From assembly GCA_947172415.1 (NCBI GenBank), contig OX359195.1, positions 2,170,001 through 2,234,000 on the forward strand: a stretch of 64,000 nucleotides of DNA, in the 5' to 3' direction. Below, one piece after another: positions 4,622 through 64,000 of this stretch. Every line of letters begins with the position of its first letter. Positions within the stretch are counted from its first letter, which is position 1. Below the pieces are notes generated by a model. That model had not been told where the DNA came from and did no database searches. It saw nothing but the letters and a program-made list of their open reading frames with translations. This DNA comes from Chondrosia reniformis (Eukaryota > Porifera > Demospongiae > Chondrillida > Chondrillidae). The position numbers and the translations under genes were made by a program.

Positions 4622-6361
4622 TTAGTATGATAACATGCCCACATCCTCCCTTCTTTCATCTTCATTATTATCATGATCACCTACTTCATACCAATCCTTC
4701 ATTCTATCAAAGAGAGGTGACACGTCCTTGTAATGATTCAACAAGGCAGTTACATACAGTGACATGCCTGTAAAAATGGACACTACAGCAATGCAAAAGA
4801 AGATAGTTGCATGGTTACTACAAATGCAACAATTTTTAGGATGTCTCGACATCAGATACACTTCATGTAAAATGACTACAATTGCTGCTAGTTGTAAAAT
4901 ATAGTTGGAACTGTAAGTTACAGCTTCTAAGGGTGAGTTAATAAAGTATATTCCAAGATACACAATGACTACTCCAAACACCTGAATACTATAGACCGGA
5001 CCCGCCCATCCAAGGGATACTGCATGACATCTGATCACCCTTCTCCATCTTGGGGGTATTTGCTGTTGGTTATTAGATGACCCATTAAGTAATTTGTTTA
5101 TTTTCCTATAAATAAGTGGATATTGACCTATGAAGCTAATGAGCATAAACACCTCAAATTTATGAGAGCAATCAAACAGTCCGGAAGGAAAATATCGAGA
5201 TAGTATTCTTCATATCACATCAAAATTACAGTACACTGTAGGTTGCTCCAAGAGTAATAACTAATATTTAAAAGGGAGAAGCACCAAGTAAAGATTTTGA
5301 CATCAGTTAATCTTATTTGTCTCTTTTGACTCGGATTCAGAATAAAAATTAAAATTTTATTTTCACTTCTGATGACTTGTATCACTAGCAAATTTCCAAG
5401 AAGTATTATACCAAGAATAACAATATTCTTTGCTAGAGTAAAGGTCCATCTTGAAGGAATATTATCTGCTGCAAAAAGAGGTGTAAGTGTAGTCAATGAT
5501 ATTCCATATGGCTTTCCTTCATACCACAACGGTTCATATTGAAAGAACACTCCTTGTGAGTCATTCATCACCTTTTTAGTAGAAAAAAACTTATAATGAA
5601 AATGCCTCTTCATATATAATATTCAATTTGTTTCATTCATACTTGTCTCAAATTATTAAGGTTTAATATTTAATGACTTATATTCTTTTATAACAGATTC
5701 AGCCTGGCTGTATTTAATTACGTATATATATTTGACAGTGCCTCATTGGGTCTGTACCTTAGCACTTTTTTGCACATGTATAAATATTATAATTAGCATA
5801 TATAATCTCTAGCTATAATAATTTATATATATCAAGTGAAATATAATAAGCTGTGTATGTAGTTGTAACACTCACATTAGCTCCAAAATTCTGCAAAAGA
5901 GAAGGTTCACATAAAGTTGGAACAGTCAAGCAAAGTGATTGAGGTAGAAAAGCCGAGTCCTTTCTAAGGATATGAAACATGACAGGAGGTAGTGCTAAAT
6001 AGAAATAATACCGGTACCACAAAAATATATCACAATCCTTAGTGTTCCACTGACAACAGGGCTTCTTTATATCTAATATTGTATTATTCTGACTTGTTGC
6101 ATTGATCATTTTGAAGTGGAACACTTTGACTCCGTTTGAAATATTGAAAATTTGATAGATATCAAGTGGATTTCCAAAGTAATCACGAATACCATAGAGC
6201 TTGCTTCCATTTCTGAGGGCATCCATCATCTGATGTAAATTCTCTATACATTCCTTATTCTTGTAATTCTCCTCTCCACTTGTGTGTTTAACTTGAAGCA
6301 GTACTAGCATCAGTAAGTAGACAGTAATGGTGGAGGATAGAGGACACTTCAGCGAAGTCAT
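4622..6361 (-). pseudogene. 7TM-family copy c1, broken
   Basis: Exon 1 is 5,876-6,361 (162 codons: signal peptide, then the six-cysteine ectodomain) and is open, ending at a GTGAGT-type donor position (here GTGAGTG is changed to GTGAGTGT-T context but GT is kept). Exon 2 is 4,622-5,571. Relative to intact copies, exon 2 has a 2-base insertion near 5,157, a stop created near 5,213 (MSHE becomes M-stop-YE), and a deletion near 4,705 that removes TM7 while leaving the acidic tail. Exon 1 is the NGSKLYGIRDYFG subtype, shared only with c4. Clearly non-functional as a receptor; a soluble product of exon 1 alone cannot be excluded. Confidence 0.85.
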
Positions 6362-7071
6362 AACTGCACTTAATCAGAGATGGAGAATTAACAGCAATTA
6401 AAGAATTGACAGGCTAGCTGTGGTCTCTTTTATCATGTCTTATACACTGTACTATATAATGGCACGCATATATTTATGCTAGCATTTGTGAGTAAAGAAT
6501 TGCTTATTATATTTTTTGTTTCATCATTTGGTTACTAAAGTTACAGTGTGTGTAATCATTGATTCTATACATATATACATTCATGTATATATAAGTAGTA
6601 TTATATAAGATTTGTTATTTATTATTATAAAGTATGTATTACAGTTGCATATATTGATATACTTATAGTTGAATTTAATTTCATTTCAATTGTATATATT
6701 CAACTTACATAGCTAGCAGCTACATAATGGTTACAGTTAAAATTTATAAGTGAAAAGGGGCACTAGAGATGATTTGGTTTCTCGTCAGCAATAAAATTAA
6801 TACACATGCAGGTATGTGTATGAATGCTTCAACCAGCCATATTGTGCTGCAGAACAACGGGTCAAATTGTTCAACTCATGTAATGCATGTGCAATTTATA
6901 ATAATGGCCAATAGCTCAACTTTCAATCTCACTACTTGTAAATACATATAATATGTTTATTTAAGAGAGGCTTCACAACAACATATATAGCAGCCATTTC
7001 AAATGATCACATGAGTTACAGGTTTTATAAGAAAGTAAACTATAAAATACTATAAAAAATATATAGCCAAA
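6362..7071. other. Upstream spacer of c1 (B type)
   Basis: This holds the AT-rich upstream region of c1, with a TATAAGA-like element near 6,440, and then a degenerate retroposon-like block described separately. No gene is visible. Confidence 0.5.
6765..6960 (+). mobile_element. Degenerate retroposon 3' end (R1)
   Basis: Aligned by eye to 56,875-57,065: the palindromic GACCCATGGGTC core is decayed here to ACAACGGGTC, while the flanking GTTCAACTCATG and the TAGCTCAACTTTCAATCTCAC tail are kept. It sits at the same place as the copies at 19.4, 49.4 and 56.9 kb, so it spread with the B cassette. Confidence 0.4.
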
Positions 7072-8344: not shown

Positions 8345-10122
8345 TCAGTATGATAACATGCCCACATCCTCCCTTCTTTCATCTTCATTATTATCATCAT
8401 CACCTGCTTCATACCAATCCTTCACCTTCTTCTTCCCAAAATAACCAAAAGCAGCCACTAACAAGGTTGATATTACATACTCAATCAGCTTAGTGCTGTC
8501 AAAGAGAGGTGACGCATCCTTGTAATGGTTCAATAAGGCAGTTACATACAGCGACATGCCTGTAAAATGAACACTATAGCAATGCAGAAGTAGATAGTTG
8601 CATGGTTGCTAAAATTGCAGCAATTTTTAGGATGTCTCAACATCAGATACACTTCATGTACAATGACTACAATTGCTGCTAGTTGTAAAATGTAGCAGAA
8701 ACTGTAAGTTACAGCTTCTAAGGGTTGGTTTATAAACAATATTCCAAGATACACAATGGCTACTCCAAACACCTGAATACTATAGACCGGACCCGCCCAT
8801 CCAAGGGATATTGCATGACATCTGATCACCCTTCTCCATCTTGGAGGTTGTTGCTGGTTATTAGATGACTCATTAAGTAATTTGTTTATTTTGCCATAAA
8901 TAAGTGGATATTGACCTATGAAACTAATGAGCATAAACACCTCAATTATGAGAGCAATCACACAGTCCGGAAGGAAAAAATCAGGAAAGTATTCTTCATG
9001 TGACATCAGAGTTACAATACATTGTAGGTTGCTCCAAGAATAAAAACAAATAATTAAAAGAAGGAAGCACCAACTAAAGAGTTTGACTTCAGTTAATCTT
9101 TTTTGTCTCTTTTGACTCTGCTTCAGAATAAAAATTAAAATTTTGTTCTCACTTCTGATGACTTGTATAATTAGTAAATTTCCAAGAAGTATTATACCAA
9201 GAATAACAATATTCTTTGCTAGAGTGAAGGTCCATCTTGAAGGAATATTATCTGATATATAAAGAGGTGTAAGCGTAGTCAATGATATTCCATATGGCTT
9301 TCCTTCATACCACAACGGTTCATATTGAAAGAACACTCCTTGTGAGTCATTCATCACCTTTTTAATAGAAAATATTATTGAAAATGCCTATTCATGCATA
9401 TTTAATTATAATAAAGGAATTTTATCTTGTATAACATTAAATGTCAATTGAAATTGCCTATATATTAATATAAATTAATAGATTCAATTAATAATATTCA
9501 ATTTGTGGTTATTTTTTATAACAGAATTTAGCCAACAAAAGTGTATAGAATCTCTAGTTATAGTACAAGTGATATATGGTGTATAGGGATATATTATTAC
9601 AAGTTGTGCATGTGTAAATAGTATAGTAGTGACACTCACATTAGCTCCAAAATTTAGCAAAAGGGAAGGTTCACATAAAGTTGGAACAGTCAAGCAAAGT
9701 GATTGAGGTAGAGAACCTGAGTCCTTTCTAAGGATTTGAAACATGAGAGGAGGTAGCACTAAATAGAAATAATAGCGGTACCACACGAATATATGACAAT
9801 CCTTAGTGTTCCACTGACAACAGGGCTTCTCTATATCTAATATTGTATTATTCTGACTTGTTGCATTGATCATTTTGAAGTGGAACACTTTGACTCCATT
9901 TGAAATATTGAAAATTTGATGGATGTCCAGTGGATTTCCAAAGTAATCGTAAATACCATAGTGCTTGTTTCCACTTCTGAGGGCATCCACCATCTGATGT
10001 AAATTCTCTACGCAATCCTTCTTGTAATTTTCCTCTCCACTTGTGTGTCTGACTTGAAGCAGTGCTAGCATCAGTACGTAGACAGTAAAGGTAGAGGATA
10101 GAGGACACTTCAGAGAAGTCAT
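8345..10122 (-). pseudogene. 7TM-family copy c2, one frameshift
   Basis: Exon 1 is 9,640-10,122 (161 codons) and exon 2 is 8,345-9,357, joined in phase 0 across a 282-bp intron with GTGAGT donor and AG acceptor. The whole gene is open except for one missing base near 8,562, in the run of T that encodes VFIFTG in TM6; after it the frame reads LQACRCM and stops. The rest of TM6, TM7 and the tail are intact in the shifted frame. It is a recent pseudogene, a null allele, or a sequencing error in a homopolymer. Confidence 0.85.
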
Positions 10123-10553: not shown

Positions 10554-10584
10554 TATACAGAATTTTTAAGGCTACTGACTAGTA

Positions 10585-14909: not shown

Positions 14910-14927
14910 TATATACATGTATATACG

Positions 14928-15819: not shown

Positions 15820-16826
15820 TCAGTATGGTAACATGCCCACATCCTCCCTTCTTTCATCTTCATTATTATCATGATCACCTGTTCCATACCAATCCTTCAC
15901 CTTTTTCTTCCCAAAATAACCAAGAGCAGCCACTAACAAGGTTGATATTACATACTCAATCAACTTGGTGCTGTCAAAGAGAGGTGACACATCCTTGTAA
16001 TGGTTCAACAAGGCAGTTACATACAGCGACATGCCTGTAAAAATGGACACTACAGCAATGCAAAAGAAGATAGTTGCATGGTTGCTACAAATGCAACAAT
16101 TCTTAGGTTGTCTCAACATCAGATACACTTCATGTAGAATGACTACAATTGCTACGTGTAGCAGAAACTGTAACTTATAGCTTATAAGGGTGAGTAAATA
16201 AACAATATTCCAAGATACACAATGGCTACTCCAAACACCTGAATACTATAGACCGGACCCGCCCATCCAAGGGATATTGCATGACATCTGATCACCCTTC
16301 TCCATCTTGGGGATATTTGCTGTTGGTTATTAGATGACTCATTAAGTAATTTGTTTATTTTGCCATAAATAAGTGGATATTGACCTATGAAGCTAGTGAG
16401 CATGAACACCTCAATTATGAGAGCAATCACACAGTCCGGAAGGAAAATATCGAGATAGTATTCTTCATGTGACATCAAAATTACTGTACGTTGTAGGTTG
16501 CTCCAAGAGTAATAACAAATAATTAAAAGAGCTAGAGAGAAGCACCAACTAAAGTGTTTGACTTCTGTTAATAATCGTTTTTGTCTCTTTTGACTTTGAT
16601 TCAGAATACAAATTAAACTTTTATTTTCACTTCTGATGACTTGTATGACTAGCAAATTTCCAAGAAGTATTATACTAAGAATACCAATATTCTTTGCTGG
16701 AGTGAAGGTCCATCTTGAAGGAATATTATCTGATACTGTAAGTGTAATCAACGATATTCCATATGGCTTTCCCTCATACCACATTGGCACATATCCAAAG
16801 AACACTCCTTGTGAGTCATTCATCAC
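15820..16826 (-). pseudogene. 7TM-family copy c3, orphan exon 2
   Basis: Only exon 2 exists. The downstream half (15,820-16,128: TM5 end, TM6, TM7, tail) is open. A deletion in the TM4-TM5 region near 16,150-16,190 shifts the frame, and small insertions mark TM2 (LLTEVK and an added LALL). The splice acceptor AG before GTGATG is changed to AT. About 250 bp upstream the sequence runs straight into the 3' end of c4 with no exon 1 between. It uses the YVPMW juxtamembrane variant. It is a product of unequal crossing-over and cannot encode a complete receptor. Confidence 0.9.
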
Positions 16827-17100: not shown

Positions 17101-18977
17101 TTAGTATGGTAACATGCCCACATCCTCCCTTCTTTCATCTTCATTATTATCATGATCACCTGTTCCATACCAATCCTTCACCTTTTTCTTCCCAAAATAA
17201 CCAAGAGCAGCCACTAACAAGGTTGATATTGCATACTCCATCAACTTGGTGCTGTCAAAGAGAGGTGACACGTCCTTGTAATGGTTCAATAAGGCAGTAA
17301 CATACAGCGACATGCCTGTAAAAATGAACACTACAGCAATGCAGAAGAAGATAGTTGCATGGTTACTACAAATGCAACAATTTTTAGGATGTCTCAACAT
17401 CAGATACACTTCATGTAGAATGACTACAATTGCTGCTAGTTGTAAAATGTAGCAGGAACTGTAAGTTATAGCTTTTAAGGGTGAGTTAATAAAGTATATT
17501 CCAAGATACACAATGACTACTCCAAACACCTGAATACTATAGACCGGACCCGCCCATCCAAGGGATATTGCATGACATCTGATCACTCTCCTCAATCTTG
17601 AGGATATTTGCTGCTGGTTATTAGATGACTCATTAAGTAATTTGTTTATTTTGCCATAAATAAGTGGATATTGACCTATGAAGCTAATGAGCATAAACAC
17701 CTCAATTATAAGAGCAATCACACAGTCCGGAAGGAAAATATCGGGATAGTATTCTTCATGTGACATCAGAAATACAGTACATTGAAGGTTGCTCCAAGAA
17801 TAATAACAAATAATTAAAAGAGAGAAGCACCAAGTAAAGAGTTTGACTTCAGTTAATCTTTTTTGTCTCTTTTGACTCTGCTTCAGAATAAAAATTAAAA
17901 TTTTATTTTCACTTCTGATGACTTGTATCATTAGCAAATTTCCAAGAAGTATTATACCAAGAATAACAATATTCTTTGCTAGAGTGAAGGTCCATCTTGA
18001 AGGTATACCATCTGCTGCAAAAAGAGGTATAAGCGTAGTCAATGATATTCCATATGGCTTTCCTTCATACCACAACGGTTCATATTGAAAGAACACTCCT
18101 TGTGAGTCATTCATCACCTTATTAGTAGAAAAAAAGTTATAATGAAAATGCCTCTTCATATATATTATATAATATTCAATTTGTTTCATGCATACTTGTC
18201 AAATTATTTTTCTCAAATTATTAAGGTTTAATATATAACAATGTTCAATTTGTGCATGACTTATAATCTCATATAACAGATTCAGCTTGGCTGTATTTAC
18301 GTATATATATTTGACAGTGCCTCATTGGGTCTGTACCTTAGCACTTTTTTGCACGTGTGTAAATAATAATTATTATTATAATTAGCATATATAATCTCTA
18401 GCTATAATAATTTATATATATCAAGTGAAATTCATATACGCATATAGGGAATATAATAAGCTGTGTATGTAGTTGTGACACTCACATTAGCTCCAAAATT
18501 CTGCAAAAGCGAAGGTTCACATAAAGTTGGAACAGTCAAGCAAAGTGATTGAGGTAGAAAATGTGAGTCATTTCTAAGGATATGAAACATGACAGGAGGT
18601 AGTGCTAAATAGAAATAATACCGGTACCACAAAAATATAATATTATCACAATCCTTAGTGTTCCACTGACAACAGGGCTTCTCTATATCAAATATTGTAT
18701 TATTCTGACTTGTTGCATTGATCATTTTGAAGTGAAACACTTTGACTCCGTTTGAAATATTGAAAATTTGATAGATATCAAGTGGATTTCCAAAGTAATC
18801 ACGAATACCATAGAGCTTGCTTCCATTTCTGAGGGCATCCATCATCTGATGTAAATTCTCTATACATTCCTTATTCTTGTAATTCACCTCTCCACTTGTG
18901 TGTTTAACTTGAAGCAGTACTAGCATCAGTAAGTAGACAGTAATGGTGGCGGATAGAGGACACTTCAGCGAAGTCAT
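17101..18977 (-). CDS. 7TM receptor-like protein c4, intact
   Basis: Exon 1 is 18,486-18,977 (164 codons) and exon 2 is 17,101-18,117 (338 codons plus TAA), spliced in phase 0 across a 368-bp intron (GTGAGT donor, AATAAG acceptor), giving 502 residues. Residues 1-29 are a signal peptide (hydrophobic 12-24). The ectodomain has Cys 38, 102, 103, 110, 146 and 153 and several N-glycosylation sequons (near 51, 73, 87 and 136). Predicted TM segments: about 214-231, 257-272, 296-318, 347-373, 383-405, 419-441 and 459-473. Loops 232-256 and 319-346 are basic, the loop 273-295 is acidic, and the tail (474-502) starts KKK and ends in an acidic DNNEDERRED and GMLPY. This fits a plasma-membrane receptor with the N-terminus outside. 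A hydrophobic stretch at 113-133 could be an eighth membrane segment. Ligand and family are unknown. Confidence 0.85.
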
Positions 18978-20329: not shown

Positions 20330-22102
20330 TTAGTATGGTAACATGCCCACATCCTCCCTTCTTTCATCTTCATTATTATCATGATCACCTGCTTCATACC
20401 AATCCTTCACCTTCTTCTTCCCAAAATAACCAAGAGCAGCCACTAACAAGGTTGATATTACATACTCCATCAACTTGGTGCTGTCAAAGAGAGGTGACAC
20501 GTCCTTGTAATGGTTCAATAAGGCAGTAACATACAGCGACATGCCTGTAAAAATGAACACTATAGCAATGCAAAAGAAGATAGTTGCATGGTTGCTACAA
20601 ATGCAACAATTCTTAGGATGTCTCAACATCAGATACACTTCATGTAGAATGACTACAATTGCTGCTAGTTGTAAAATGTAGCAGAAACTGTAAGTTACAG
20701 CTTCTAAAGGTGAGTTAATAAAGTATATTCCAAGATACACAATGGCTACTCCAAACACCTGAATACTATAGATCGGACCTGCCCATCCAAGGGATATTGC
20801 ATGAAATCTGATCACCCTTCTCCATCTTGGGGGTATTTGCTGCTGGTTATTAGATGACTCATTAAGTAATTTGTTTATTTTGCCATAAATAAGTGGATAT
20901 TGACCTATGAAGCTAATGAACATAAATATTTCAATTATGAGAGCAATCACACAGTCCGGAAGGAAAATATCGGGATAGTATTCTTCTTGTGACATCAGAG
21001 TTACAATACATTGTAGGTTGCTCCAAGAATAAACACAAACAAATAAAAGAAATAAGCACCAACTAAAGAGTTTGACTTCAGTTAATCTTTTTTGTCTCTT
21101 TTGACTCTGCTTCAGAATAAAAATTAAAATTTTATTCTCACTTTTGATGACTTGTATGACTAGCAAATTTCCAAGAAGTATTATACCAAGAATAACAATA
21201 TTCTTTGCAAGAGTGAAGGTCCATATTCGAGGAATATTTGTTACTTGAGGTGTAAGCGTATGCAACGATACTCCATATGGCTTTCCCTCATACCACATTG
21301 GCACATATCGAAAGAATACTCCTTGTGAGTCATTCATCACCTTTTTAATAGAAAATATTATATATTACTTATATTGAAAATGCCTACTTGTGCATATTTA
21401 ATAATAATTAAAGGATTCTTGTATATTTTTCATAAATGTCAAATGAAATTGCCTATATATTAATCTTAATAGATTAAAAAATTATATTCAATTTGTGATT
21501 AATTATTATATAACAGAATTTAGCCAACAAAAGTGAATAGAGTCTCTAGCTATAATGGCGTATAGGGCATATATTATTACAAGTTGTGCATGTGTATATA
21601 GTATAGTGGTGACACTCACATTAACTCCAAAGTTCTGCAAAAGGGAAGGTTCACATAAAGTTGGAACAGTCAAGCAAAGTGATTGAGGTAGAAAATGTGA
21701 GTCCTTTCTAAGGATATGAAACATGAGAGGAGGTAGCACTAAATAGAAATAATAGCGGTACCACACGAATATATCACAATCCTTAGTGTTCCACTGACAG
21801 CATGGCTTCTCTATATCTAACACTGTATCATTCTGACTTGTTGCATTGATCATTTTGAAGTGGAACACTTTGACTCGCTTTGAAATATTGAAAATTTGAT
21901 GGATGTCCAGTGGATTTCCAAAGTAATCGTAAATACCATAGTGCTTGTTTCCACTTCTAAGGGCATCCACCATCTGATGTAAATTCTCTATGCAATCCTT
22001 CTTGTAATTTTCCTCTCCACTTGTGTGTCTGACTTGAAGCAGTGCTAGAATCAGTACGTAGAAGGTAAAGGTAGAGGATAGAGGACACTTCAGAGAAGTC
22101 AT
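20330..22102 (-). CDS. 7TM receptor-like protein c5, intact
   Basis: Exon 1 is 21,620-22,102 (161 codons) and exon 2 is 20,330-21,340 (336 codons plus stop); 279-bp intron; 497 residues. The architecture is as in c4: signal peptide, six-Cys ectodomain, seven hydrophobic segments, acidic tail ending GMLPY. It differs most from c4 in the segment just before TM1 (FFRYVPMWYEGKPYG, then LTPQVTNIPRIW in place of LTPLFAADGIPSRW), which is two residues shorter, and in TM2 (LFLLFVCVYSW). Exon 1 is the SGNKHYGIYDYFG subtype. The A cassette lies upstream. Function unknown beyond receptor-like topology. Confidence 0.85.
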
Positions 22103-26976: not shown

Positions 26977-28772
26977 TCAGTATAATAACATGCCCACATC
27001 CTCCCTCCTTTTATCTTCATTATTATCATGATCACCTGCTTCATACCAATCCTTCATTTTCTTCTTCCCAAAATAACCAAGACCAGCCACTAACAAGGTT
27101 GATAATACATACTCCATCAACTTGGTGCTATCAAAGAGAGGTGACACGTCCTTGTAATGGTTCAACAAGGCAGTTACATACAGTGACATGCCTGTAAAAA
27201 TGAACACTATAGCAATGCAGAAGAAGATAGTTGCATGGTTGCTAAAATTGCAGCAATTCTTAGGATGTCTCAACATCAGATACACTTCATGTAGAATGAC
27301 TACAATTGCTGCTAGTTGTAAAATGTAGCAGAAACTGTAAGTTACAGCTTCTAAGGGTTGGTTTATAAACAATATTCCAAGGTACACAATGACTACTGTA
27401 AACACCTGAATACTATAGACCGGACCCGCCCATCCAAGGGATATTGCATGACATCTGATCACCCTCCTCCATCTTGGAGGTATTTGCTGCTGGTTATTAG
27501 ATGACTCATAAAGTAATTTGTTTATTTTGCCATAAATAAGTGGATATTGACTTATGAAACTAATGAGCATAAACACCTCAATTATAAGAGCAATCACACA
27601 GTCCAGAAGGAAAATATCGGGATAGTATTCTTCATGTGACATCAGAAATACAGTACATTGAAGGTTGCTCCAAGAATAATAACAAATAATTAAAAGAGAG
27701 AAGCACCAAGTAAAGAGTTTGACTTCAGTTAATCTTTTTTGTCTCTTTTGACTCTGCTTCAGAATAAAAATTAAAATTTTATTTTCACTTCTGATGACTT
27801 GTATCACTAGCAAATTTCCAAGAAGTATTATACCAAGAATAACAATATTCTTTGCTAGAGTGAAGGTCCATCTTGAAGGAATATTATCTGCTGCAAAAAT
27901 AGGTGTAAGCGTAGTCAATGATATTCCATATGGCTTTCCTTCATACCACAACGGTTCATATTGAAAGAACACTCCTTGTGAGTCATGCATCACCTTTTTA
28001 ATAGAAAATAATATTGAAAATGCCTATTCATGCATATTTATTTATAATAAAGGAATATTAATCTTGTATATATAACATTAAATGTCAAATGAAATTGCCT
28101 ATATATTAATATAAATTAATAGATTCAATTAATAATATTCAATTTGTGGTTATTTTTTATAACAGAATTTAGCCAACAAAAGTGTATAGAATCTCTAGTT
28201 ATAGTATAATTATATCAAGTGATATATGGCATATAGGGATATATTATTACAAGTTGTCCATGTGTATATAGTATATTAGTGACACTCACTTCAGCTCCAA
28301 AGTTCTGTAAAAGGGAAGGTTCACATAAAGTTGGAACAGTCAAGCAAAGGGATTGAGGTAGAGAATCTGAGTCCTTTCTGAGGATATGAAACATGAGAGG
28401 AGGTAGCACTAAATAGAAATAATAGCGGTACCACACATATATATCACAATCCTTAGTGTTCCACTGACAGCACGGCTTCTCTAAATATAACATTGTATTA
28501 TTCTGACTTGTTGCATTGATCATTTTGAAGTGGAACACTTTGACTCGCTTTGAAAAATTAAAAATTTGATGGATGTCCAGTGGATTTCCAAAGTAATCGT
28601 AAATACCATAGTGCTTGTTTCCACTTCTGAGGGCACCCACCATCTGATGTAAATTCTCAACGCATTCCTTCTTGTAATTTTCCTCTCCACTTGTGTGTCT
28701 GACTTGAAGCAGTGCTAGAATCAGTAAGTAGACAGTAAAGGTAGAGGATAGAGGACACTTCAGAGAAGTCAT
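26977..28772 (-). CDS. 7TM receptor-like protein c6, intact
   Basis: Exon 1 is 28,290-28,772 (161 codons) and exon 2 is 26,977-27,993 (338 codons plus stop); 296-bp intron; 499 residues. Exon 2 begins VMHDSQG where the others have VMNDSQG. The donor codon is GAA, so the junction residue is Glu instead of Asn. Juxtamembrane variant FQYEPLWYEG and LTPIFAADNIPSRW. The tail is the KKKMKDWYEAG and EDKRREDVGMLLY variant shared with c7, c8 and c9, marking a subfamily of recent duplicates. Otherwise the same SP, six-Cys ectodomain, 7TM and acidic tail. Confidence 0.85.
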
Positions 28773-35111: not shown

Positions 35112-35468
35112 TTGATTATCACATCGATTATTCATAGATTAACCCAGCTCTCCTGTGGTTGATGGTGGCCAGCAACCCATTGGTTAAGATGGCCCCTCCC
35201 ACTGGAAATGGGCTGGGTCTTGATTATCAACTTGTCTGATGAAGTGAATCACCACTAAGAATTTACACTGATTATTTGTTGTAGTTAGTTTAAGAGGGAG
35301 AACATGGGAGAGGCATTGCTGTGGCAGTTGTAGCTCAGTGGCAGAGCAACTGGTGGTCATAACCAGCTGTCCTGGGTTCAATTCCCAGCAATTGCTTCAT
35401 TCGTGTTTTTCCCTCTTTATGATGTTTCATTGATTATTACTTGTGGTTTGATTATCACATTGATTATT
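35112..35468 (+). mobile_element. tRNA-containing insertion in the c7 intron
   Basis: A 357-bp insertion absent from the ten other introns, bounded by CATG on both sides (probable 4-bp target duplication). The element starts and ends with direct copies of TTGATTATCAC and GATTATT (about 21 bp, one mismatch) and carries a tRNA-like unit at 35,324-35,396 with good A and B boxes. GATTAT motifs are repeated in its 3' tail. It looks like a SINE or other small retroposon; the 210 bp before the tRNA-like part is unusual for a SINE. Confidence 0.6.
35324..35396 (+). tRNA. tRNA-like sequence, degenerate
   Basis: Acceptor stem GCAGTTG/CAATTGC, D stem GCTC/GAGC and T arm CTGGG-TTCAATT-CCCAG all pair. 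The anticodon stem CTGGT/ACCAG pairs only if one extra base is allowed after the D stem. The loop GGTCATA lacks U33 and puts TCA at the anticodon position. A box TAGCTCAGTGG and B box GGTTCAATTCC fit the pol III consensus. More likely a SINE promoter than a working tRNA; a Met-type CAT loop is the probable ancestor. Confidence 0.4.
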
Positions 35469-35982
35469 CATGTGCAAATAGTATATTAGTGACACTCACT
35501 TTAGCTCCAAAGTTCTGTAAAAAGGAAGGTTCACATAAAGTTGGAACAGTCAAGCAAAGTGATTGAGGTAGAAATTGTGATTCCTTTTTGAAGATATGAA
35601 ACATGAGAGGAGGTAGCACTAAATAGAAATAATAGCGGTACCACACGAATATATCACAATCCTTAGTGTTCCACTGACAACAGGGCTTCTCTATATCTAA
35701 TATTGTATTATTCTGACTTGTTGCATTGATCATTTTGAAGTGGAACACTTTGACTCCATTTGAAATATTAAAAATTTGATGTATGTCCAGTGGATTTCCA
35801 AAGTAATCGTAAATACCATAGTGCTTGTTTCCACTTCTAAGGGCATCCACCATCTGATGTAAATTCTCTATGCAATCCTTCTTGTAATTTTCCTCTCCAC
35901 TTGTGTGTCTGACTTGAAGCAGTGCTAGAATCAGTACGTAGAAGGTAAAGGTAGAGGGTAGAGGACACTTCAGAGAAGTCAT

Positions 35983-40676: not shown

Positions 40677-42468
40677 TCAGTATAATAACATGCCCACATC
40701 CTCCCTCCTTTCATCTTCATTATTATCATGATCACCTGCTTCATACCAATCCTTCATTTTCTTCTTCCCAAAATAACCAAGACCAGCCACTAACAAGGTT
40801 GATAATACATACTCCATCAACTTGGTGCTATCAAAGAGTGGTGACACATCCTTATAATGATTCAACAAGGCAGTTACATACAGCGACATGCCTGTAAAAA
40901 TGAACACTATAGCAATGCAGAAGAAGATAGTTGCATGGTTGCTAAAATTGCAACAATTCTTAGGATGTCTCAACATCAGATACACTTCATGTAGAATGAC
41001 TACAATTGCTGCTAGTTGTAAAATGTAGCAGAAACTGTAAGTTACAGCTTCTAAGGGTTGCTTTATAAAGACTATTCCAAAATACACAATGTCTACTCCA
41101 AACACCTGAATACTATAGATCGGACCCGCCCATCCAAGGGATATTGCATGACATCTGATCACCCTCCTCCATCTTGGGGGTATTTGCTGCTGGTTATTAG
41201 ATGACTCATTAAGTAATTTGTCTATTTTGCCATAAATAAGTGGATATTGACTTATGAAACTAATGAGCATAAACACCTCAATTATAAGAGCAATCACACA
41301 GTCCGGAAGGAAAATATCGGGATAGTATTCTTCATGTGACATCAGAAAAACAGTACATTGAAGGTTGCTCCAAGAATAATAACAAATAATTAAAAGAGAG
41401 AAGCACCAAGTAAAGAGTTTGACTTCAGTTAATCTTTTTTGTCTCTTTTGACTCTGCTTCAGAATAAAAATTAAAATTTTATTTTCACTTCTGATGACTT
41501 GTATCACTAGCAAATTTCCAAGAAGTATTATACCAAGAATAACAATATTCTTTGCTAGAGTGAAGGTCCATCTTGAAGGAATATTATCTGCTACAAAAAG
41601 AGGTGTAAGCGTAGTCAATGATATTCCATATGGCTTTCCTTCATACCACAACGGTTCATATTGAAAGAACACTCCTTGTGAGTCATTCATCACCTTTTTA
41701 ATAGAAAATAATATTGAAAATGCCTATTCATGCATATTTATTTATAATAAAGGAATATTAATCTTGTATAACATTAAATGTCAAATGAAATTGCCTATAT
41801 ATTAATATAAATTAATAGATTCAATTAATAATATTCAATTTGTGGTTATGTTTTATAACAGCATTTAGCCAACAAAGGTGTATAGAATCTCTAGTTATAG
41901 TATAATTATATCAAGTGATATATGGCATATAGGGATATATTATTACAAGTTGTCCATGTGTATATAGTATATTAGTGACACTCACTTCAGCTCCAAAGTT
42001 CTGTAAAAGGGAAGGTTCACATAAAGTTGGAACAGTCAAGCAAAGGGATTGAGGTAGAGAATCTGAGTCCTTTCTGAGGATATGAAACATGAGAGGAGGT
42101 AGCACTAAATAGAAATAATAGCGGTACCACACATATATATCACAATCCTTAGTGTTCCACTGACAGCACGGCTTCTCTAAATATAACATTGTATTATTCT
42201 GACTTGTTGTATTGATCATTTTGAAGTGGAACACTTTGACTCGCTTTGAAAAATTAAAAATTTGATGGATGTCCAGTGGATTTCCAAAGTAATCGTAAAT
42301 ACCATAGTGCTTGTTTCCACTTCTGAGGTCTTTCACCATCTGATGTAAATTCTCTACGCAATCCTTCTTGTAATTTTCCTCTCCACTGGTGTGTCTGACT
42401 TGAAGCAGTGCTAGAATCAGTAAGTAGAAGGTAAAGGTAGAGGGTAGAGGACACTTCAGAGAAGTCAT
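40677..42468 (-). CDS. 7TM receptor-like protein c8, intact
   Basis: Exon 1 is 41,986-42,468 (161 codons) and exon 2 is 40,677-41,693 (338 codons plus stop); 292-bp intron; 499 residues. Closest to c6. Distinguishing residues: MVKDLRSGNK instead of MVGALRSGNK in exon 1, and FGVDIVYFGIVFIKQP in TM4 where c6 has FTVVIVYLGILFINQP. Tail KKKMKDWYEAG with EDERREDVGMLLY. Six ectodomain Cys, seven hydrophobic segments and acidic tail are all present; splice sites GTGAGT and AAAAAG are kept. Confidence 0.85.
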
Positions 42469-47146: not shown

Positions 47147-48963
47147 TCAGTATAATAACATGCCCACATCCTCTCTCCTTTTATCTTCATTATTATCATC
47201 ATCACCTGCTTCATACCAATCCTTCATTTTCTTCTTCCCAAAGTAACCAAGACCAGCCACTAACAAGGTTGATAATACATACTCCATCAACTTGGTGCTA
47301 TCAAAGAGAGGTGACACATCCTTATAATGATTCAACAAGGCAGTTACATACAGCGACATGCCTGTAAAAATGAACACTATAGCAATGCAGAAGAAGATAG
47401 TTGCATGGTTGCTAAAATTGCAACAATTCTTAGGATGTCTCAACATCAGATACACTTCATGTAGAATGACTACAATTGCTGCTAGTTGTAAAATGTAGCA
47501 GAAACTGTAAGTTACAGCTTCTAAGGGTTTGTTTATAAACAATATTCCAAGATACACAATGTCTACTCCAAACACCTGAATACTATAGACCGTACCCGCC
47601 CATCCAAGGGATATTGCATGACATCTGATCACCCTTCTCCATCTTGGAGGTATTTGCTGCTGGTTATTAGATGACTCATTAAGTAATTTGTTTATTTTGC
47701 CATAAATAAGTGGATATTGACCTATGTAGCTAATGAACATAAACACTTCAATTATGAGAGCAATCACACAGTCCGGAAGGAAAATATCGGGATAGTATTC
47801 TTCATGTGACATCAGAAATACAGTACATTGTAGGTTGCTCCAAGAATAATAACAAATAATTAAAAGAGAGAAGCACCAAGTAAAGAGTTTTACTTCAGTT
47901 AATCTTTTTTGTCTCTTTTGACTCTGCTTCAGAATAAAAATTAAAATTTTATTTTCACTTCTGATGATTTTTATCACTAGCAAATTTCCAAGAAGTATTA
48001 TACCAAGAATAACAATATTCTTTGCTAGAGTGAAGGTCCATCTTGAAGGAATATTATCTGCTACAAAAAGAGGTGTAAGTGTAGTCAATGATATTCCATA
48101 TGGCTTTCCCTCATGCCACATTGGCACATATCAAAATAACACTCCTTGTGAGTCATTCATCACCTTTTTAATAGAAAATAATATTTATATAACTCATAAT
48201 GAAAATGCCTACTCATGCATATTTATTATTAATACAGGAATATTAATCTTGTATATTTTACATAAATGTCAAATAAAATTGCCTATATATTAATATTTAT
48301 AGATTCAATAATAACATTCAATTTGTGAATCATTCTTTTATAACAGAATTTAACCAACAAAAGTGGATAGAGTCTCTAGCTATAATAAAATTTATATCTA
48401 GTGATAAGGCGTATAGCTAGCTATAGGGCATATATTATTACAAGTTGTGCATGTGTATATAGTATAGTGGTGACACTCACATTAGCTCCAAAATTCTGTA
48501 AAAGGGAAGGTTCACATAAAGTTGGAACAGTCAAGCAAAGTGATTGAGGTAGAAAAGCCGAGTCCTTTCTTAGGTTATGAAACATGAGAGGAGGTAGCGC
48601 TAAATAGAAATAATAGCGGTACCACACGAATATATCACAATCCTTAGTGTTCCACTGACAGCACGGCTTCGCTATATCTAACACTATATCATTCTGACTT
48701 GTTGCATTGATCATTTTGAAGTGGAACACTTTGACATGATTTGAAAAATTAACAATTTGATGGATGTTCAGTGGATTTCCAAAGTAATCGTAAATACCAT
48801 AGTGCTTGTTTCCACTTCTGAGGGCATCCACCATCTGATGTAAATTCTCTACACAATCCTTCTTGTAATTTTCCTCTCCACTTGTGTGTCTGACTTGAAG
48901 CAGTGCTAGAATCACTAAGTAGACAGTAAAGGTAGAGGATAGAGGACACTTCAGAGAAGTCAT
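47147..48963 (-). pseudogene. 7TM-family copy c9, one stop codon
   Basis: Exon 1 is 48,481-48,963 (161 codons) and exon 2 is 47,147-48,163, joined by a 317-bp intron with good splice sites. Exon 2 is in frame over all 338 codons except codon 11, a TGA at 48,131-48,133 where c5 and c11 have CGA (Arg in FFRYVPMW). Its juxtamembrane start is the YVPMWHEG variant, but the following LTPLFVADNIPSRW and the rest are the c6/c8 type, so the copy is a mosaic. Nonsense allele or recent pseudogene; re-initiation at MPMW would lack the ectodomain. Confidence 0.88.
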
Positions 48964-50460: not shown

Positions 50461-51389
50461 TTCGACTTTCCTCCACTATTACCAGTCAAGTATATGTATA
50501 TATGTATATGTATCTTCTTACCATGCATGCATGCACTGGTTTATACTGTATGGTGATGGCTTTTGCATGGACAGTATTGACTTTGTTATATTAAACATAA
50601 TTATTATATGTACTTAAAATTGATGTTAATCATGCACTTGCAAAGTTCCACTATCACACTCAACGACGTACAATCCATTAGTTTTCATCCCACACATGTA
50701 GAGAAACAACTCATTCAAACTTAGATACGTAGTGTACAAACGTAGATCTTTTCAGAAAAGGTTAGCAGTTTCAAAGGTATATATATATACGTACGTATTT
50801 GATATTTCTTAGCTAGCATTTCAATTTCATCTAGGAACTGCATGTTCATAACACCAACTACTGCCTATATAAGTAAATTCAACTGAATTGACTCATTGTT
50901 TAAAATGTTGAAAAAAGTGTATATTTGTATTTTAAAACACATAGACATATGGAGTATTCAATGAATTCTAAGTTATAAGCTTGTGACTAAAAATGATATT
51001 TCATGTACATACGTATATATGGGTACATACGTATATTCATTTAATCTGGAACTGTAATATATATAAATAATATGCATGTTTAATATTACTTCTAACTCAA
51101 GTAAATGGGTTTGAGAAATATGGTATATAATATAATATGGTATTTTTCAAACTCATTAAATAATAATTAGATCAAACAATTAATGCAATAGTCATACAAT
51201 TCTTCATTGTATATGTATAAGTAGAAAGGAAGGTATATATTATACATATGTATGAATCAGATACATATTAATGGATATATACGTATGCTAGTAGTGTATC
51301 CCATATTGCCACAAAATCCTCAATACATAATAGGTATGTATATATATATGTTGCATAATTGCTTCCATATAAAAAGGTTCACACAAACG
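50461..51389. other. 3' flank of c10 (shared spacer)
   Basis: Paralogue of 7,383-8,344; no coding potential. Confidence 0.6.
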
Positions 51390-53168
51390 CTATGGTAACA
51401 TGCCCACATCCTCCCTTCTTTCATCTTCATTATTATCATCATCACCTGCTTCATACCAATCCTTCATTTTCTTCTTCCCAAAATAACCAAGAGCAGCCAC
51501 TAACAAGGTTGATATTACATACTCCATCAACTTGGTGCTGTCAAAGAGAGGTGACACATCTTTGTAATGGTTCAACGAGGCAGTTACATACAGTGACATG
51601 CCTGTAAAAATGAACACTATAGCAATGCAAAAGAAGATAGTTGCATAGTTACTACAAATGCAACAAGTTTTAGGATGTCTCAACATCAGATACACTTCAT
51701 GTACAATGACTACAATTACTGCTAGTTGTAAAATGTAGTAGAAACTGTTAGTTACAGCTTCTAAGGGTGAGTTAATAAAGTATATTCCAAGATACACAAT
51801 GGCTACTCCGAACACCTGAAAACTATAGACTGGACCCGTCCATCCAAGAGATACTGCATGTAATCTGATCACCTTCTTCCATCTTGAGGATATTTGCTGC
51901 TGGTTATTAGATGACTCATTAAATAATTTGTATATTTGCCATAAATAAGTGGATATTGACCTATAAAGCTAAAGAACATAAACACTGCAATTATGAGAGC
52001 AGTCACACAGTCCGGAAGGAAAATATCGGGATAATATTCTTCATGTGACATCAGAATAATAGTACATTGTAGGTTGCTCCAAGAATAAATACAAATCAAT
52101 AAAAGAGAGAAGCACCAAGTAAAGAGTTTGATCTTTTTTGACTCTTTTTACTCTGATTCAGAATAAATATTAAAATTTTATTTTCACTTCTGATGACTTG
52201 CATAATTAACAAATTTCCAAGAAGTATTATACCAAGAGTGAAGGTACATCCTGAATGAATTTTATTTGATACACGAAGAGGTGTAAGCATAATCAATGAT
52301 ATTCCATATGGCTTTTCCTCATGCCACATTGGCACATATCAAAATACTCCTTGTGAGTCATTCATCACCTTTTTAATAGAAAATGATGTTTAACTTATAA
52401 TGAAAATGCCTACTCATGCATATTTAATAATAATAAAGGAATATTTAATCTTGTATATTTTACAAAAATTTCAAAATTGCCTATATATTAATATTAATAG
52501 ATTCAATAATAATATTCAATTTGTGATTATTTCTTTTATAACTGAATTTAGCCAACAAACGTATACAGAGTCTCTAGCTATAATAAAATTATATCAAGTG
52601 ATATGGCGTATAGCTAGCTATAAAGCATATATTATTATTTCAAGTTGTCCATGTGTACATACGTAGTATAGTGGTGACACTCACATTAGCTCCCAAGTTC
52701 TGCAAAAGGGAAGGTTCACATAAAGTTGGAACATTCAAGCAAAAGTGATTGAGGTAGAAAACCTGGGTCCTTTCTAAGGTTACGAAACATGAGAGGAGGT
52801 AGCACTAAATTGAAATAACAGCAGTACCACATGTATATATCACAATCCTTAGTGTTCCACTGACACCATGGCTTCTCTATATCTAACACTGTATCATTCT
52901 GACTTGTTGCATTGATCATTTTGAAGTGGAACACTTTGACTCGCTTTAAAAAATTAACAATTTGATGGATGTCCAGTGGATTTCCAAAGTAATCGTAAAT
53001 ACCATAGTGCTTGTTTCCACTTCTGAGGGCATCCACCATCTGATGTAAATTCTCAACACATTCCTTCTTGTAATTTTCCTCTCCACTTGTATGTCTAACT
53101 TGAAGCAGTGCTAGCATCACTAAGTAGACAGTAAAGGTAAAGGATAGAGGACACTTCAGAGAAGTCAT
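51390..53168 (-). pseudogene. 7TM-family copy c10, broken
   Basis: Exon 1 is 52,685-53,168 (484 nt, one extra base near 52,742 that breaks the frame before the last two Cys; also CCQW is changed to WCQW). Exon 2 is 51,390-52,368, in three frames: small deletions near 52,130 and 52,240 remove part of TM1 and the TM1-TM2 loop, and another frame break lies near 51,870. The end reads MLP followed by TAG because the usual 3' sequence is deleted. At least four lesions; clearly an old pseudogene. Confidence 0.88.
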
Positions 53169-54595: not shown

Positions 54596-56427
54596 TCAGT
54601 ATGGTAACATGCCCACATCCTCCCTTCTTTCATCTTCATTATTATCATCATCACCTGCTTCATACCAATCCTTCACCTTCTTCTTCCCAAAATAACTAAG
54701 AGCAGCCACTAACAAGGTTGATATTACATACTCCATCAACTTGGTGCTGTCAAAGAGAGGTGACACATCCTTGTAATGGTCCAACAAGGCAGTTACATAC
54801 AGTGACATGCCTGTAAAAATGAACACTATAGCAATGCAAAAGAGGATAGTAGCATGGTTGCTACAATTGCAACAAGTTTTAGGATGTCTCAACATCAGAT
54901 ACACTTCATGTACAATGACTACAATTGCTGCTAGTTGTAAAATGTAGCAGAAACTGTAAGTTACAACTTCTAAAGGTGAGTTAATAAAGAATATTCCAAG
55001 ATACACAATGGCTACTCCAAACACCTGAATACTATAGACCGGACCCGCCCATCCAAGGGATATTGCAAGACATCTTATCACCCTCCTCAATCTCTGGGGT
55101 ATTTGCTGCTGGTTATTAGATGGCTGATTAAGTAATTTGTTTATTTTGCTATAAATAAGTGGATATTGACCTATAAAACTAATGAACATAAATACTTCAA
55201 TTATGAGAGCAATCACACAGTCCGGAAGGAAAATATCGGGATAGTATTCTTCATGTGACATCAGAATTACAGTACATTGTAGGTTGCTCCAAGAATATAA
55301 ACAAATAGATAATAGAAGGAAGCACCAACTAAAGAGTTTGACTTCAGTTAATCTTTTTTGTCTCTTTTGACTCTGATTCAGAATCAAAATTAAAATTTTA
55401 TTCTCACTTCTGATGACTTGTATAATTAGTAAATTTCCAAGAAGTATTATACCAAGAATAACAATATTCTTTGCTAGGGTTAAGGTCCATATTCGAGGAA
55501 TAGTTGTTACACGAAATGGTGTAAGCTTATTCAACGATATTCCATATGGCTTTCCCTCATGCCACATTGGCACATATCGAAAGAACACTCCTTGTGAGTC
55601 ATTCATCACCTTTTTAATAGAAAATAATATTTTTATAACTTATAATGAAAATGCCTATATACTCATGCATATTTAATAATTATAATAGAGGAATATTAAT
55701 CTTGTATATTTTACATAAAATGTAATATCAAAAGAAATTGCCTATATATATATTAATATTAGTAGATTCAATAATAATATTCAATTTGTGATTAATTCTT
55801 TTATAACAGAATTTAGCCAACAAAAGTGTATAGAGTCTCTAGCTATATTAAAAATATATATATCAAGTGATATATGGTGTATAGGGCATATATTATTACA
55901 AGTTGTGCATGTGTATATAGTATAGTGATGACACTCACATTAGCTCCAAAGTTCTGTAAAAGGGAAGGTTCACATAAAGTTGGAACAGTCAAGCAAAGTG
56001 ATTGAGGCAGAAAAGCCGAGTCCTTTCTTAGGTTATGAAACATGAGAGGAGGTAGCGCTAAATAGTAATAATACCGGTACCACATGAATATATCACAATC
56101 CTTAGTGTTCCACTGACAGCACGGCTTCTCTATATATAACATTGCATTATTCTGACTTGTTGCATTGATCATTTTGAAGTGGAACACTTTGATATGCTTT
56201 GAAAAATTAAAAATTTGATGGATGTCCAATGGATTTCCAAAGTAATCGTAAATACCATAGTGCTTGTTTCCACTTCTGAGGGCATCCACCATCTGATGTA
56301 AATTCTCTACGCATTCCTTCTTATAATTTTCCTCTCCACTTGTATGTCTAACTTGAAGCAGTGCTAGCATCACTAAGTAGACAGTAAAGGTAAAGGATAG
56401 AGGACAGGTACACTTCAGAGAAGTCAT
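54596..56427 (-). CDS. 7TM receptor-like protein c11, intact
   Basis: Exon 1 is 55,939-56,427 (163 codons; two extra residues CT near the start, MTSLKCTCPLS) and exon 2 is 54,596-55,609 (337 codons plus stop); 329-bp intron; 500 residues. The juxtamembrane segment is the FRYVPMWHEG and LTPFRVTTIPRIW variant, nearest to c5. TM2 is LFSWCFLLLSICLYSW. Other marks: LLNQPSNNQQ in the basic loop, ALLDHYKD before TM7, ALSYFG in TM7. Tail EDERREDVGMLPY. It is the intact copy beside the most complete MRI1. Confidence 0.85.
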
Positions 56428-57065: not shown

Positions 57066-57144
57066 ATTTTTCAAATGATCACATGACTTACAGATTATAT
57101 AAGAAAGTAAACTATGAAATATTTATAAAAGCTATAAAGCCAAA

Positions 57145-60746: not shown

Positions 60747-62522
60747 TCAGTTTGGTAACATACCCACATCCTCCCTCCTTTCCTCTTCATTGTTATCATG
60801 ATCACCTGCTTCATACCAATCCTTAACCTTCTTCTTCCCAAAATAACCAAGAGCAGCCACTAAAACGTTGATATTGCATACTCCATCAACTTGGTGCTGT
60901 CAAAGAGAGGTGACACATCCTTGTAATGGTTCAATAAGGCAGTTACATACAGTGACATGCCTGTAAAAATGAACACTATAGCAATGCAGAAGAAGATAGT
61001 TGCATGGTTGCTACAAATGCAACAATTCTTAGATGTCTCAACATCAAATACACTTCATGTAGAATGACTACAATTGCTGCTAACAGTAAAATGTAGCAGA
61101 AACTGTTAGTTACAGCTTCTAAGGGTGAGTTAATAAAGTATATTCCAAGATACACAATGGCTACTCCGAACACCTGAATACTATAGACCGGACCCGTCCA
61201 TCCAAGAGATACTGCATGTAATCTGATCACCTCTCTTCCACCTTGAGAATATTTGCTGCTGGTTATTAGATGACTCATTAAGTAATTTGTTTATTTTGCC
61301 ATATATATAAGTGGACATTGACCTATGTAGCTAATGAATATAACACTTCAATTTTTTTGAGAGCAATCATACAGTCCGGAAGGATAATATCAACATAGTA
61401 TTCTTCATGTGACATCAAAATTACCGTACATTGTAGGTTGCTCCAAGAATAAAAGCAAATAATTAAAAGAAGGAAGCACCAACTAAAGAGTTTGATTTCA
61501 GTTAATCTTTTTTGTCTCTTTTGACTCTGATTCAGAATAAAAATATATAATTTTATTCTCACTTCTGATGACTTGTATCATTAGTAAATTTCCGAGAAGT
61601 AAAATACCAAAAATAACAATATTCTTTGTTAGAGTGAAGGCCCATATGCATCTTGGAGGAATTTTATTTGATAAAAAAAGAGATGTAAGTGTAATCAATG
61701 ATATTCCATGCCACATTGGCTCATATCGAAAGAACACTCCTTGTGAGTCATTCATCACCTTTTTAATAGAAAATATTTAACTTCTAATGAAAATCACTAT
61801 TTATGCATATTAAAAAATAAAGGAATCTTGTGTAACAATATTTTACTTAAATGTCAAATGAAACTGCCTATATATTAATATTATACTTTATTTTGATTTA
61901 GTGATTAATTCTGTTACAACAGAATTTAGCCAACAAAAGTGAATAGACTCTCTAGCTATAACAAATTTATATCAATTAAGTGATATGGTGTATAGCAAGT
62001 TGTGCATGTGTATATAGTATAGCGGTGACACTCACATTAGTTCCATAGTTCTGCAAAAGGGAAGGTTCACATAAAGTTGGAACAGTCAAGCAAAGTGATT
62101 GAGGTAGAAAATGTGAGTCCTTTCTAAGGATATATATGAAACATGAGAGGAGGTAGCGCTAAATAGAAATAATACCGGTACCACATGAATATAGCTCAGT
62201 CCTTAGTGTTCCACTGACTGCACGGCTTCTCTATATCCAACAATGTATTATTCTGACTTGTTGCATTGATCATTTTGAAGTGGAACACTTTAACTCGCTT
62301 TGAAAAATTAAAAATTTGATGGATATCAAGTGGATTTCCAAAGTAATCGTAAACACCATAGTGCTTGTTTCCACTTCTGAGGGCATCCACCATCTGATGT
62401 AAATTCTCTACGCATTCCTTCCTGTAATTTTCCTCTCCACTTGTGTGTCTGACTTGAAGCAGTGCTAGCATCAGTAAGCATACAGTAAAGGTAGAAGATA
62501 GAGGACACTTCAGAGTAGTCAT
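60747..62522 (-). pseudogene. 7TM-family copy c12, broken
   Basis: Exon 1 (62,036-62,522) starts MTTLKCPLSS and is open to WNTKD, then altered: CCQW is CSQW, and an insertion of about 4 bases near 62,132 breaks the frame. Exon 2 (60,747-61,758) has frame breaks near 61,550 (TM1-TM2 loop), 61,355 (before TM3), 61,310, 61,030 and 60,865. Juxtamembrane segment shortened (MWHGISLITLT). Splice donor and acceptor are still recognisable. At least five lesions; old pseudogene. Confidence 0.88.
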
Positions 62523-64000
62523 CATAGCACTTTAATCAGCTGCAGAGATGGACAATTAACAAAAAATTAAAGAATTAACAGGCTAGCTGTGGTTTTATTT
62601 ACCACGTGAATATACACTGTGCTATATTGGTAATGGCACACATTTATTTATGCTAGGACTTGTGAGTAAAGAATTGCTTATTATATTTTTCGTTTCATCA
62701 TTTGGTTATTAATTATAAAATTAAAGTGTGTGTAATCATGGATTCTATACGTACATAATAAGATTTGTTACACCAAGTATGTAGTATGTATTACAGTTGC
62801 GTATATATGTTGACTATATATCTGAATTTCATTATCCATTAGGATATATATTCAACCTACATAGTTAGCAGCTAAATAATATTAAAGGTAGAGATGGTTT
62901 GCCATAATAAATGGAACGAAAAACAAGCTCATATTAGGTTTAATCAGCTTGAATTGAAGAGCATAATGTTGGTACCTATCATTTAAATTTAAGGAAAATT
63001 TCTTACCTATTGATCAGGCTCTTTTTGAAAATAGCAATTTTGAGTGTAATTTCACTTTCTTCCAGTGTTACCAGTTGAATATGTATATATATATATATAA
63101 TGTATATGTATCTTCTTACCATGCATATATACACTGTATAGTGTATATATATACTGTATGGTGATGCCTTTTGCACGGACGGTCTTGACTTGGTCACATT
63201 AAACATATACGTATGTACTTAAAATTGATGTTAATCATGCGCTTGCAAAGTTCCACTATCACACTCAACGACATACAATCCATTAGTTTTCATCCCATAC
63301 ATGTAGAAAAATAACTCATTCAAACTTTTAAAGTTTACAAACGTAGACCTTTTCAGTAAAGGTTAGCAGTTTCAAAGGTATATATATACGTACGTATTTA
63401 GCTAGCATTTCAATTTTATCTAGGAACTATATGTTTATAACACCAACTACTGCCTATATAAGTCAATTTAGCTGAATTGACTCATTGTTTAAAATGTTGA
63501 AGAAGGTGTATATTTGTATTTTAAAACACATACACATATGGAGTATTCAATGAATTCTAAGTTATAAGCTTGTGACTAAAAATGATATTTCATGTACATA
63601 CGTATATTTATTTAATCTGGAACTATAAATATTGTGCATGAAAAATCTAAGATACCATTTTCCTACATGCTATGCCTATTCTGTTAAAAGAGCCTATAGG
63701 GGAACTAAACCTGAAGAGAGCTTTGGATGAAGATACAGGAGTCTTTTCTTCCTTCTTTTCCCTTCTTTCATTTCTTCTCCACTGGGTCAGACAGCCGTTT
63801 CTGGGAATTTCACCCTTCATCAGTGATCCTGGGAGTCTCTGTCTTTTTCTTTGTCTTGATCTTCTGTGAATCCTTGGCATGTTTAATATAACTTCAAGTA
63901 AATGGGTTTGAGAAATACGGTATATAATATAATATGGTATTTTTCAAGCTCATTTAATAATAATTGGACCATGCAATGGACATGCTATTCTTCACTGTAT
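62523..64000. other. Short B-type spacer to the right edge
   Basis: c12 upstream region, a diverged 44-nt segment (63,007-63,050, ATG changed to ATT) and the shared 3' flank of a further copy, which should lie just beyond the window. It contains the 63,640-63,882 insertion. No gene seen. Confidence 0.5.
63640..63882 (-). mobile_element. About 243-bp insertion, retroposon-like
   Basis: Splits GCATG-TTTAATATAA of the shared flank, with GCATG repeated at both sides. Read on the minus strand it starts CCAAGGATTCACAG, has CTGATGAAGGGTGAAATTCC then CAGAAACGG, an open frame rich in Arg, Lys and Ser, and ends in a CTTAGATTTTT tail at the GCATG. Size and asymmetry suggest a 5'-truncated retroposon; family not identified. 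Confidence 0.45.

Follow-up and report, generated by a model that had tools for sequence, protein, structure and literature searches.

A tandemly expanded family of putative seven-helix cell-surface proteins without a recognized Pfam counterpart in the sponge Chondrosia reniformis

What kind of protein does the demosponge Chondrosia reniformis encode many times over on its chromosome 7? The question is raised by a stretch of 64,000 nucleotides, positions 2,170,001–2,234,000 of that chromosome (C7), referred to here as the window, in which the original prediction, made from the letters alone, had placed a tandem array of twelve same-strand copies of a receptor-like gene with seven transmembrane segments (7TM). 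Analysis of the window and of the surrounding genome indicates that these copies probably belong to a lineage-expanded family of cell-surface, seven-helix proteins resembling G-protein-coupled receptors (GPCRs), which has multiplied by tandem and inter-chromosomal duplication; this interpretation is drawn from sequence comparison.

The array itself is well delineated. The two exons of the fourth copy, c4, used as tblastn queries, recover 32 pieces of the window (E≤1e-4), all on the minus strand, which group into twelve copies between positions 4625 and 62522; the same exons gave no tblastn match in any of twenty shuffled versions of the window (first-order Markov). The number and common strand of the copies are thereby borne out, and their limits agree closely with the interval 4622–62525 first proposed, but the array is neither intact nor complete within these bounds: both exons are open in only five of the twelve copies (c4, c5, c6, c8 and c11), frame changes or stops affect the other seven (c1, c2, c3, c7, c9, c10 and c12), no exon 1 was found for c3, and the array runs past the window. 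On C7 it extends over ∼140 kb, from 2.160 to 2.302 Mb, and comprises 26 exon-2 loci, 12 of which are open in exon 2, with a start-to-start spacing of 1.0–7.6 kb. Comparison of the window with itself reveals repeated blocks of up to 7.4 kb at 76–96% identity (60 longest listed), an arrangement from which expansion of the C7 array by tandem duplication can be deduced.

The gene model is predicted from consensus splice sites and conservation. In the window copies the gene consists of two coding exons, the first ending in phase 0 at a GTGAGT donor and the second starting in phase 0 after AG. The distant members examined mostly follow the same phase-0 rule with donors of the GTRAGT type, and some display GTAAGA, GTGAGC or GTAATA instead. 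For some distant members, such as locus L016, no donor was found by the phase-0 rule, and the exon-1 ends of L016, of the first gene on chromosome 8 (C8) and of L027 were set by hand in the alignment of spliced proteins (A2). L027, which lies at C7:0.216 Mb, is also the member in which no clear signal peptide was seen.

The spliced c4 protein is 502 residues long. Exon 1 codes for a signal peptide and a six-cysteine ectodomain with N-X-S/T sites, as had been proposed from the letters; the c4 cysteines are located at positions 38, 102, 103, 110, 146 and 153. Of 15 spliced members, 14–15 conserve the first five. C153 serves as the sixth in the C7 array, in the array on chromosome 10 (C10) and in a further C10 group at 0.73–0.75 Mb, while a dispersed subfamily is without C153 and instead has a cysteine among the opening residues of exon 2 (8 of the 15). 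This alternation suggests that the disulfide partner has moved between subfamilies. Exon 2 encodes a Y-x-P-x-W-Y-E-G segment followed by a variable stalk, then seven hydrophobic segments and lastly an acidic tail, and relatives at 16–26% identity retain the same plan. The tail ending GML-x-Y that the original prediction took as a family trait is typical of the C7 array, but gives way to NML-x-Y in the chromosome-10 array and differs in other subfamilies.

The predicted topology with seven helices, the N terminus outside and the C terminus inside is based on hydropathy and charge. In 25 of 28 aligned exon-2 members the Kyte–Doolittle mean exceeds 1.1 for all seven segments, and in the remaining three it does so for six. 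Loops assigned to the inside hold more lysine and arginine than those assigned to the outside in every one of the 28, so that the positive-inside rule invoked at the outset holds throughout. Median lengths of the intracellular loops (ICL) and extracellular loops (ECL) are 25 residues for ICL1, 11 for ECL1, 37 for ICL2, 4 for ECL2, 16 for ICL3 and 17 for ECL3; the mean number of lysines and arginines is 5.4 in ICL1 and 6.3 in ICL2 versus 0.3, 0.2 and 2.4 in ECL1, ECL2 and ECL3, respectively. The family has motifs of its own: [EQ]-[YF]-P-x-I-Y at the inner end of the third transmembrane segment (TM3), G-W-x-G in TM4, R-H-P-K-x-C-C in the short ICL3, which carries RHPK-x-CC-x-C, and G-Y where TM7 ends. 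In the three most distant rows these motifs are retained only in part. A cysteine at the top of TM3, noted in the original prediction, is present in nine members and missing from the rest.

Does such a protein belong to any family already described? No credible Pfam family emerged for the 28 exon-2 and 27 exon-1 members scanned, nor for 12 full ectodomains. When the exon-2 members were compared with 24736 Pfam models, 13 stray families appeared at E≤1, none recognized as a 7TM family, and Frizzled, cAMP-receptor, GPR143 and the other 7TM families that have a Pfam model did not match. The individual hits were set aside one by one: DUF6264 (0.0016) was a stray in one of the 28 exon-2 members and Cation_ATPase_C (0.071) a lone match in one of them, DUF5472 (0.02) a stray in 4 of 27 exon-1 members, and Saf_2TM (0.84) was rejected as a weak match. 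Solved structures in the PDB gave a similar outcome. A profile of the 28 exon-2 members found nothing at E≤10, and a profile of the 12 full ectodomains found two chance-level matches (0.38 and 0.51); a match of the exon-1 profile to ANKRD27 (E 0.0059) was gone when the 12-member full-ectodomain profile was used. The strong profile match to a well-described family that the original prediction had named beforehand as its refutation thus did not turn up among the members scanned, and its central proposal, a tandemly expanded 7TM-type family without a match to a known class, has held.

These results bear directly on the idea that the family is a strongly diverged branch of the classical GPCR classes A, B or C, beyond recognition by sequence and working through G proteins in the usual way. 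The inside–outside arrangement of the helices would suit such an origin, and sponge class A receptors are described as diverged from those of other animals (PMC4302439). However, single class C, B and A proteins of the same genome, used as controls, do match receptors in the PDB with best E values of 2.1e-53, 3.2e-20 and 2.9e-16, in contrast with the silence of the 28-member profile. Searches of the genome at E≤1 with the Pfam models listed 19 matches for class A (PF00001, 7tm_1), 125 for class B/adhesion (PF00002, 7tm_2) and 76 for class C (PF00003, 7tm_3); none is at a family locus, and none of the 28 members matched any of the three models. Distances computed for 181 places on the chromosomes of the family, those of the GOST_TM model included, put every family locus at least 69 kb from any listed class A, B, C or GOST place. 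The extracellular loops, free of cysteine and with an ECL2 of four residues, are further features at odds with a diverged GPCR, and this origin is considered unlikely. Profile–profile comparison between the family and class A, B and C proteins of the sponge itself (2–3 sequences each) gave probabilities of at most 1.4%, but the control pairs A–B, A–C and B–C reached no more than 1.6%, so that the comparison carries no weight for or against deep homology. As an aside on the same searches, class C matches are clustered at C4:7.38–7.49 Mb and class B matches at C8:4.71–4.76 Mb.

The main rival to a receptor is a role in trafficking of membrane cargo rather than in signalling, as a divergent relative of the GOST or Hi-GOLD proteins, in which a luminal GOLD-like domain precedes the seven helices. 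The overall layout is the same, with a signal peptide and a compact ectodomain directly before the 7TM part, and Hi-GOLD proteins are reported from sponges (PMC12716839). Yet the GOST_TM model (PF06814) matched eight pieces at two sites on chromosome 2 (C2) and, at E≤1, nothing at a family locus; the ectodomain has no credible match in Pfam or the PDB; and dozens of tandem copies would be unusual for housekeeping trafficking proteins. A GOST or Hi-GOLD affiliation is accordingly judged improbable, to about the same degree as descent from a classical class. The GPR180–TMEM145 model matched nowhere in the genome and hence has no bearing on the family.

A seven-helix topology is by itself no proof of a receptor, and the family might instead consist of multi-pass transporters, channels or membrane enzymes that carry a luminal domain and have multiplied for dosage. 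Two charged residues are conserved, E236 of the inner TM5 half in 25 of the 28 members and K291, at the outer end of TM7, in 26, and the intracellular CC-x-C motif could be a binding site for metal or lipid. Against this, Pfam yielded no credible match to a transporter, channel or enzyme for the members scanned, and this explanation is regarded as the least probable of those weighed here.

The size of the family becomes apparent when the whole assembly (117,379,552 bases in 15 contigs) is considered. The c4 exon 2 gave 88 matches, of which 17 pieces were merged by hand into neighbouring copies, leaving 71 loci, of which 49 are near full length and free of stops, 14 contain stops and 8 are partial. 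Whether exon 2 is taken from c4 or from one of three distant members, the searches recover one and the same set of loci, and two decayed weak pieces found in one distant-member search only (C7:6722457 and C13:1586962) were left uncounted. An exon-1 match lies within 4 kb of 63 of the 71 exon-2 loci and of 45 of the 49 open ones. In at least four of these 45 the exon-1 match contains a stop (C7:2282211, C7:6730540, C10:754141 and C12:486594) and others are partial, so that by this count there are fewer than 45 whole genes. In the C8 pair and the gene at C7:0.216 Mb, which are beyond the reach of the exon-1 search, exon 1 was located by its open frame; at C10:578009 no exon 1 was found. The ectodomain exon was not encountered as a gene of its own: only two of 65 merged exon-1 places have no partner, both within the C10 array, and an exon-1 match at C9:7086160 (E 0.043) was dropped as noise.

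Family loci are distributed over ten chromosomes. A tree of the open exon-2 proteins (43 of 49) shows the C7 array as one clade (100/100) placed among C10-array genes, at a fork of modest support (81/83). Separate subfamilies comprise C10 and chromosome 12 (C12) genes, the dispersed genes and the C8 genes; the protein at C7:0.216 Mb sits on a long branch whose placement is unsure. The C8 pair is related to the rest of the family with a profile–profile probability of 99.6–99.9%. L013 (C10:0.755 Mb) and L023 (C12:0.487 Mb) are nearly identical in the tree, on branches of 0.006 and 0.010, which points to a recent inter-chromosomal copy. Relatives were not found among viral contigs or prokaryote genome contigs, collections that hold no animal genomes and thus have no bearing on other animals.

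Are these proteins maintained, and where do they change? The ratio of nonsynonymous to synonymous substitution rates (dN/dS) was estimated by the Nei–Gojobori method for 17 genes, with 8 drawn from the 12 open ones of the C7 array and 9 from the 14 open ones of the C10 array. It amounts to 0.45 in the C7 array and 0.55 in the C10 arrays. By region, the exon-1 ectodomain shows 0.45 and 0.48 and the helices 0.50 and 0.56, and the ratio peaks in the part of the ectodomain encoded by exon 2, the stalk before TM1, at 0.80 (C7) and 1.03 (C10), values that are rough because the stalk and the ECLs offer few silent sites (18–29 per pair). Taken together, these ratios show purifying selection on the 17 genes, with the stalk changing fastest.

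The sequences are most simply read as coding for receptors, which would detect an outside cue and signal into the cell. The signal peptide, the cysteine-rich ectodomain open to N-glycosylation and the N-out topology would direct the protein to the cell surface or the secretory lumen. There the ectodomain with its stalk may bind an outside ligand, such as a soluble, microbial or neighbour-cell cue; binding would make the helices move, and the basic cytoplasmic face, with its long basic ICL1 and ICL2, might pass the signal inward, conceivably to G proteins. The cysteine cluster of ICL3 is possibly palmitoylated, and the cytoplasmic face appears suited to partners. The original prediction had also put forward a chemosensory or immune-type family: the pattern of copy number and pseudogenes is that of such families, and the analysis by analogy supports this comparison. 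The many similar genes, accompanied by many broken ones, suggest birth-and-death evolution of a repertoire for chemosensing, symbiont sensing or allorecognition.

A bolder version of the receptor interpretation is put forward tentatively, as a possibility held with less than even confidence: the family may be an undescribed class of animal seven-helix receptors outside GRAFS and GOST, without the canonical extracellular disulfide, which forms a major repertoire of a nerve-less animal and engages ligands through the six-cysteine ectodomain, whose sixth cysteine has moved, and the fast-changing stalk, in the service of chemosensing, symbiont discrimination or allorecognition.

Several observations weigh against a receptor. 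The disulfide between TM3 and ECL2 is near-universal in GPCR classes A, B and C; none of the three extracellular loops carries a cysteine in any of the 28 members, so that this bond cannot form, and ECL2 has only four residues. DRY and NPxxY, whose absence had been noted from the start, were likewise not seen by eye in the exon-2 alignment (A1). Segment 7 is only weakly hydrophobic (1.09–1.65), and the conserved charges of E236 and K291, in or near helices, would also suit a transport or catalytic role. Diversification driven by ligands is not proven, as the dN/dS of the exon-1 ectodomain (0.45–0.48) does not exceed 1.

The individual copies, all on the minus strand, illustrate the different degrees of preservation within the window. 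The reference copy c4 (17104..18977) has exon 1 at 18977–18486, encoding the signal peptide and ectodomain, a phase-0 intron with a GTGAGT donor, and exon 2 at 18117–17104, encoding the 7TM part and the acidic tail GMLPY. The other open copies are c5 (20333..22102; exon 1 22102–21620, exon 2 21340–20333), c6 (26980..28772; exon 1 28772–28290, exon 2 27993–26980), c8 (40680..42468; exon 1 42468–41986, exon 2 41693–40680) and c11 (54599..56427; exon 1 56427–55939, exon 2 55609–54599). In four copies exon 1 is open and exon 2 is damaged: c1 (4625..6361; exon 1 6361–5876) has an exon 2 broken by a frame change (5571–4625), c2 (8348..10122; exon 1 10122–9640) has a frame change near the end of exon 2 (9357–8348), c7 (33839..35982; exon 1 35982–35500) contains one in-frame TGA in exon 2 (34852–33839) and a repeat in its intron, and c9 (47150..48963; exon 1 48963–48481) has one in-frame TGA close to the start of exon 2 (48163–47150). 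Copy c3 (15823..16826) is an exon 2 alone, with a frame change; its exon 1 was searched for and not found. Both exons of c10 (51393..53168) are degraded by several frame changes, and c12 (60753..62522) is degraded by several frame changes and stops.

The repeat in the c7 intron (35113–35468) is a 356-base element dispersed across the genome, with a tRNA-like stretch bearing a UCA anticodon (Rfam tRNA, 55 bits). It has at least 74 genome matches, some in tandem (40 of 1385 candidates scored). The element resembles a tRNA-derived short interspersed element or a tandem repeat rather than a genuine tRNA-Sec gene. Between receptor copies lie single-exon genes of the IF-2B family (PF01008) on the minus strand, at window positions 57148–58176 and 49651–50475, which presumably encode methylthioribose-1-phosphate isomerase. 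All 12 genome matches to PF01008 at E≤0.001 fall on C7 at 2.177–2.315 Mb, two of them full length, and the gene seems to have been carried along by the tandem duplications of the receptor array. Elsewhere, at locus L020 (C3:2298000–2304500, minus strand), a multi-helix open reading frame and another one (4674–5375 and 6042–6500) stand beside a family member; neither has a Pfam family at E≤0.1, and there may be a further membrane protein here without an assigned family.

How does the family relate to what has been published? The assembly odChoReni1.1 is credited with 17,340 protein-coding genes in PMC12181767. The census of GPCRs in the sponge Amphimedon was built from Pfam matches (PMC4302439), and a family without a Pfam model would for that reason be invisible to it. 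Hi-GOLD and further families were added by a 2025 study of GPCRs from choanoflagellates and other eukaryotes (PMC12716839). Among the papers that literature searches listed, none describes a family of the present kind in its title or the opening of its abstract. By its sequence it is a putative new 7TM family with no credible match to a named family in Pfam or the PDB, and it might coincide with a cluster of PMC12716839 such as Hi-GOLD or GPRch3. Its 49 open near-full-length loci exceed in number the 19 pieces listed for class A in this genome. If the proteins are true receptors, a large share of what a nerve-less animal uses at its surface for sensing or immunity has gone unnoticed, and the arrays would lend themselves well to the study of how receptors arise and are lost.

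Three known systems invite comparison. The GOST and Hi-GOLD proteins (GPR107/108, TMEM87, GPR180 and TMEM145; Hi-GOLD) share the compact ectodomain directly before seven helices, but the sponge family lacks a GOST_TM match, is strongly tandem-expanded and includes many broken copies. The classical class A, B (adhesion) and C receptors of the same genome have in common with it an N-outside seven-helix topology, assigned here by hydropathy and charge; the family differs in falling outside the Pfam class models, in having no cysteine in the extracellular loops, in its four-residue ECL2 and in an ICL1 of ∼25 residues. Vertebrate olfactory receptors and the chemoreceptors of nematodes and insects are lineage-specific 7TM repertoires characterized by tandem arrays, recent duplicates and many broken copies. 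The sponge family exhibits all three traits, but its genes have two exons and code for a signal peptide and a disulfide-rich ectodomain, and no Pfam model matches them.

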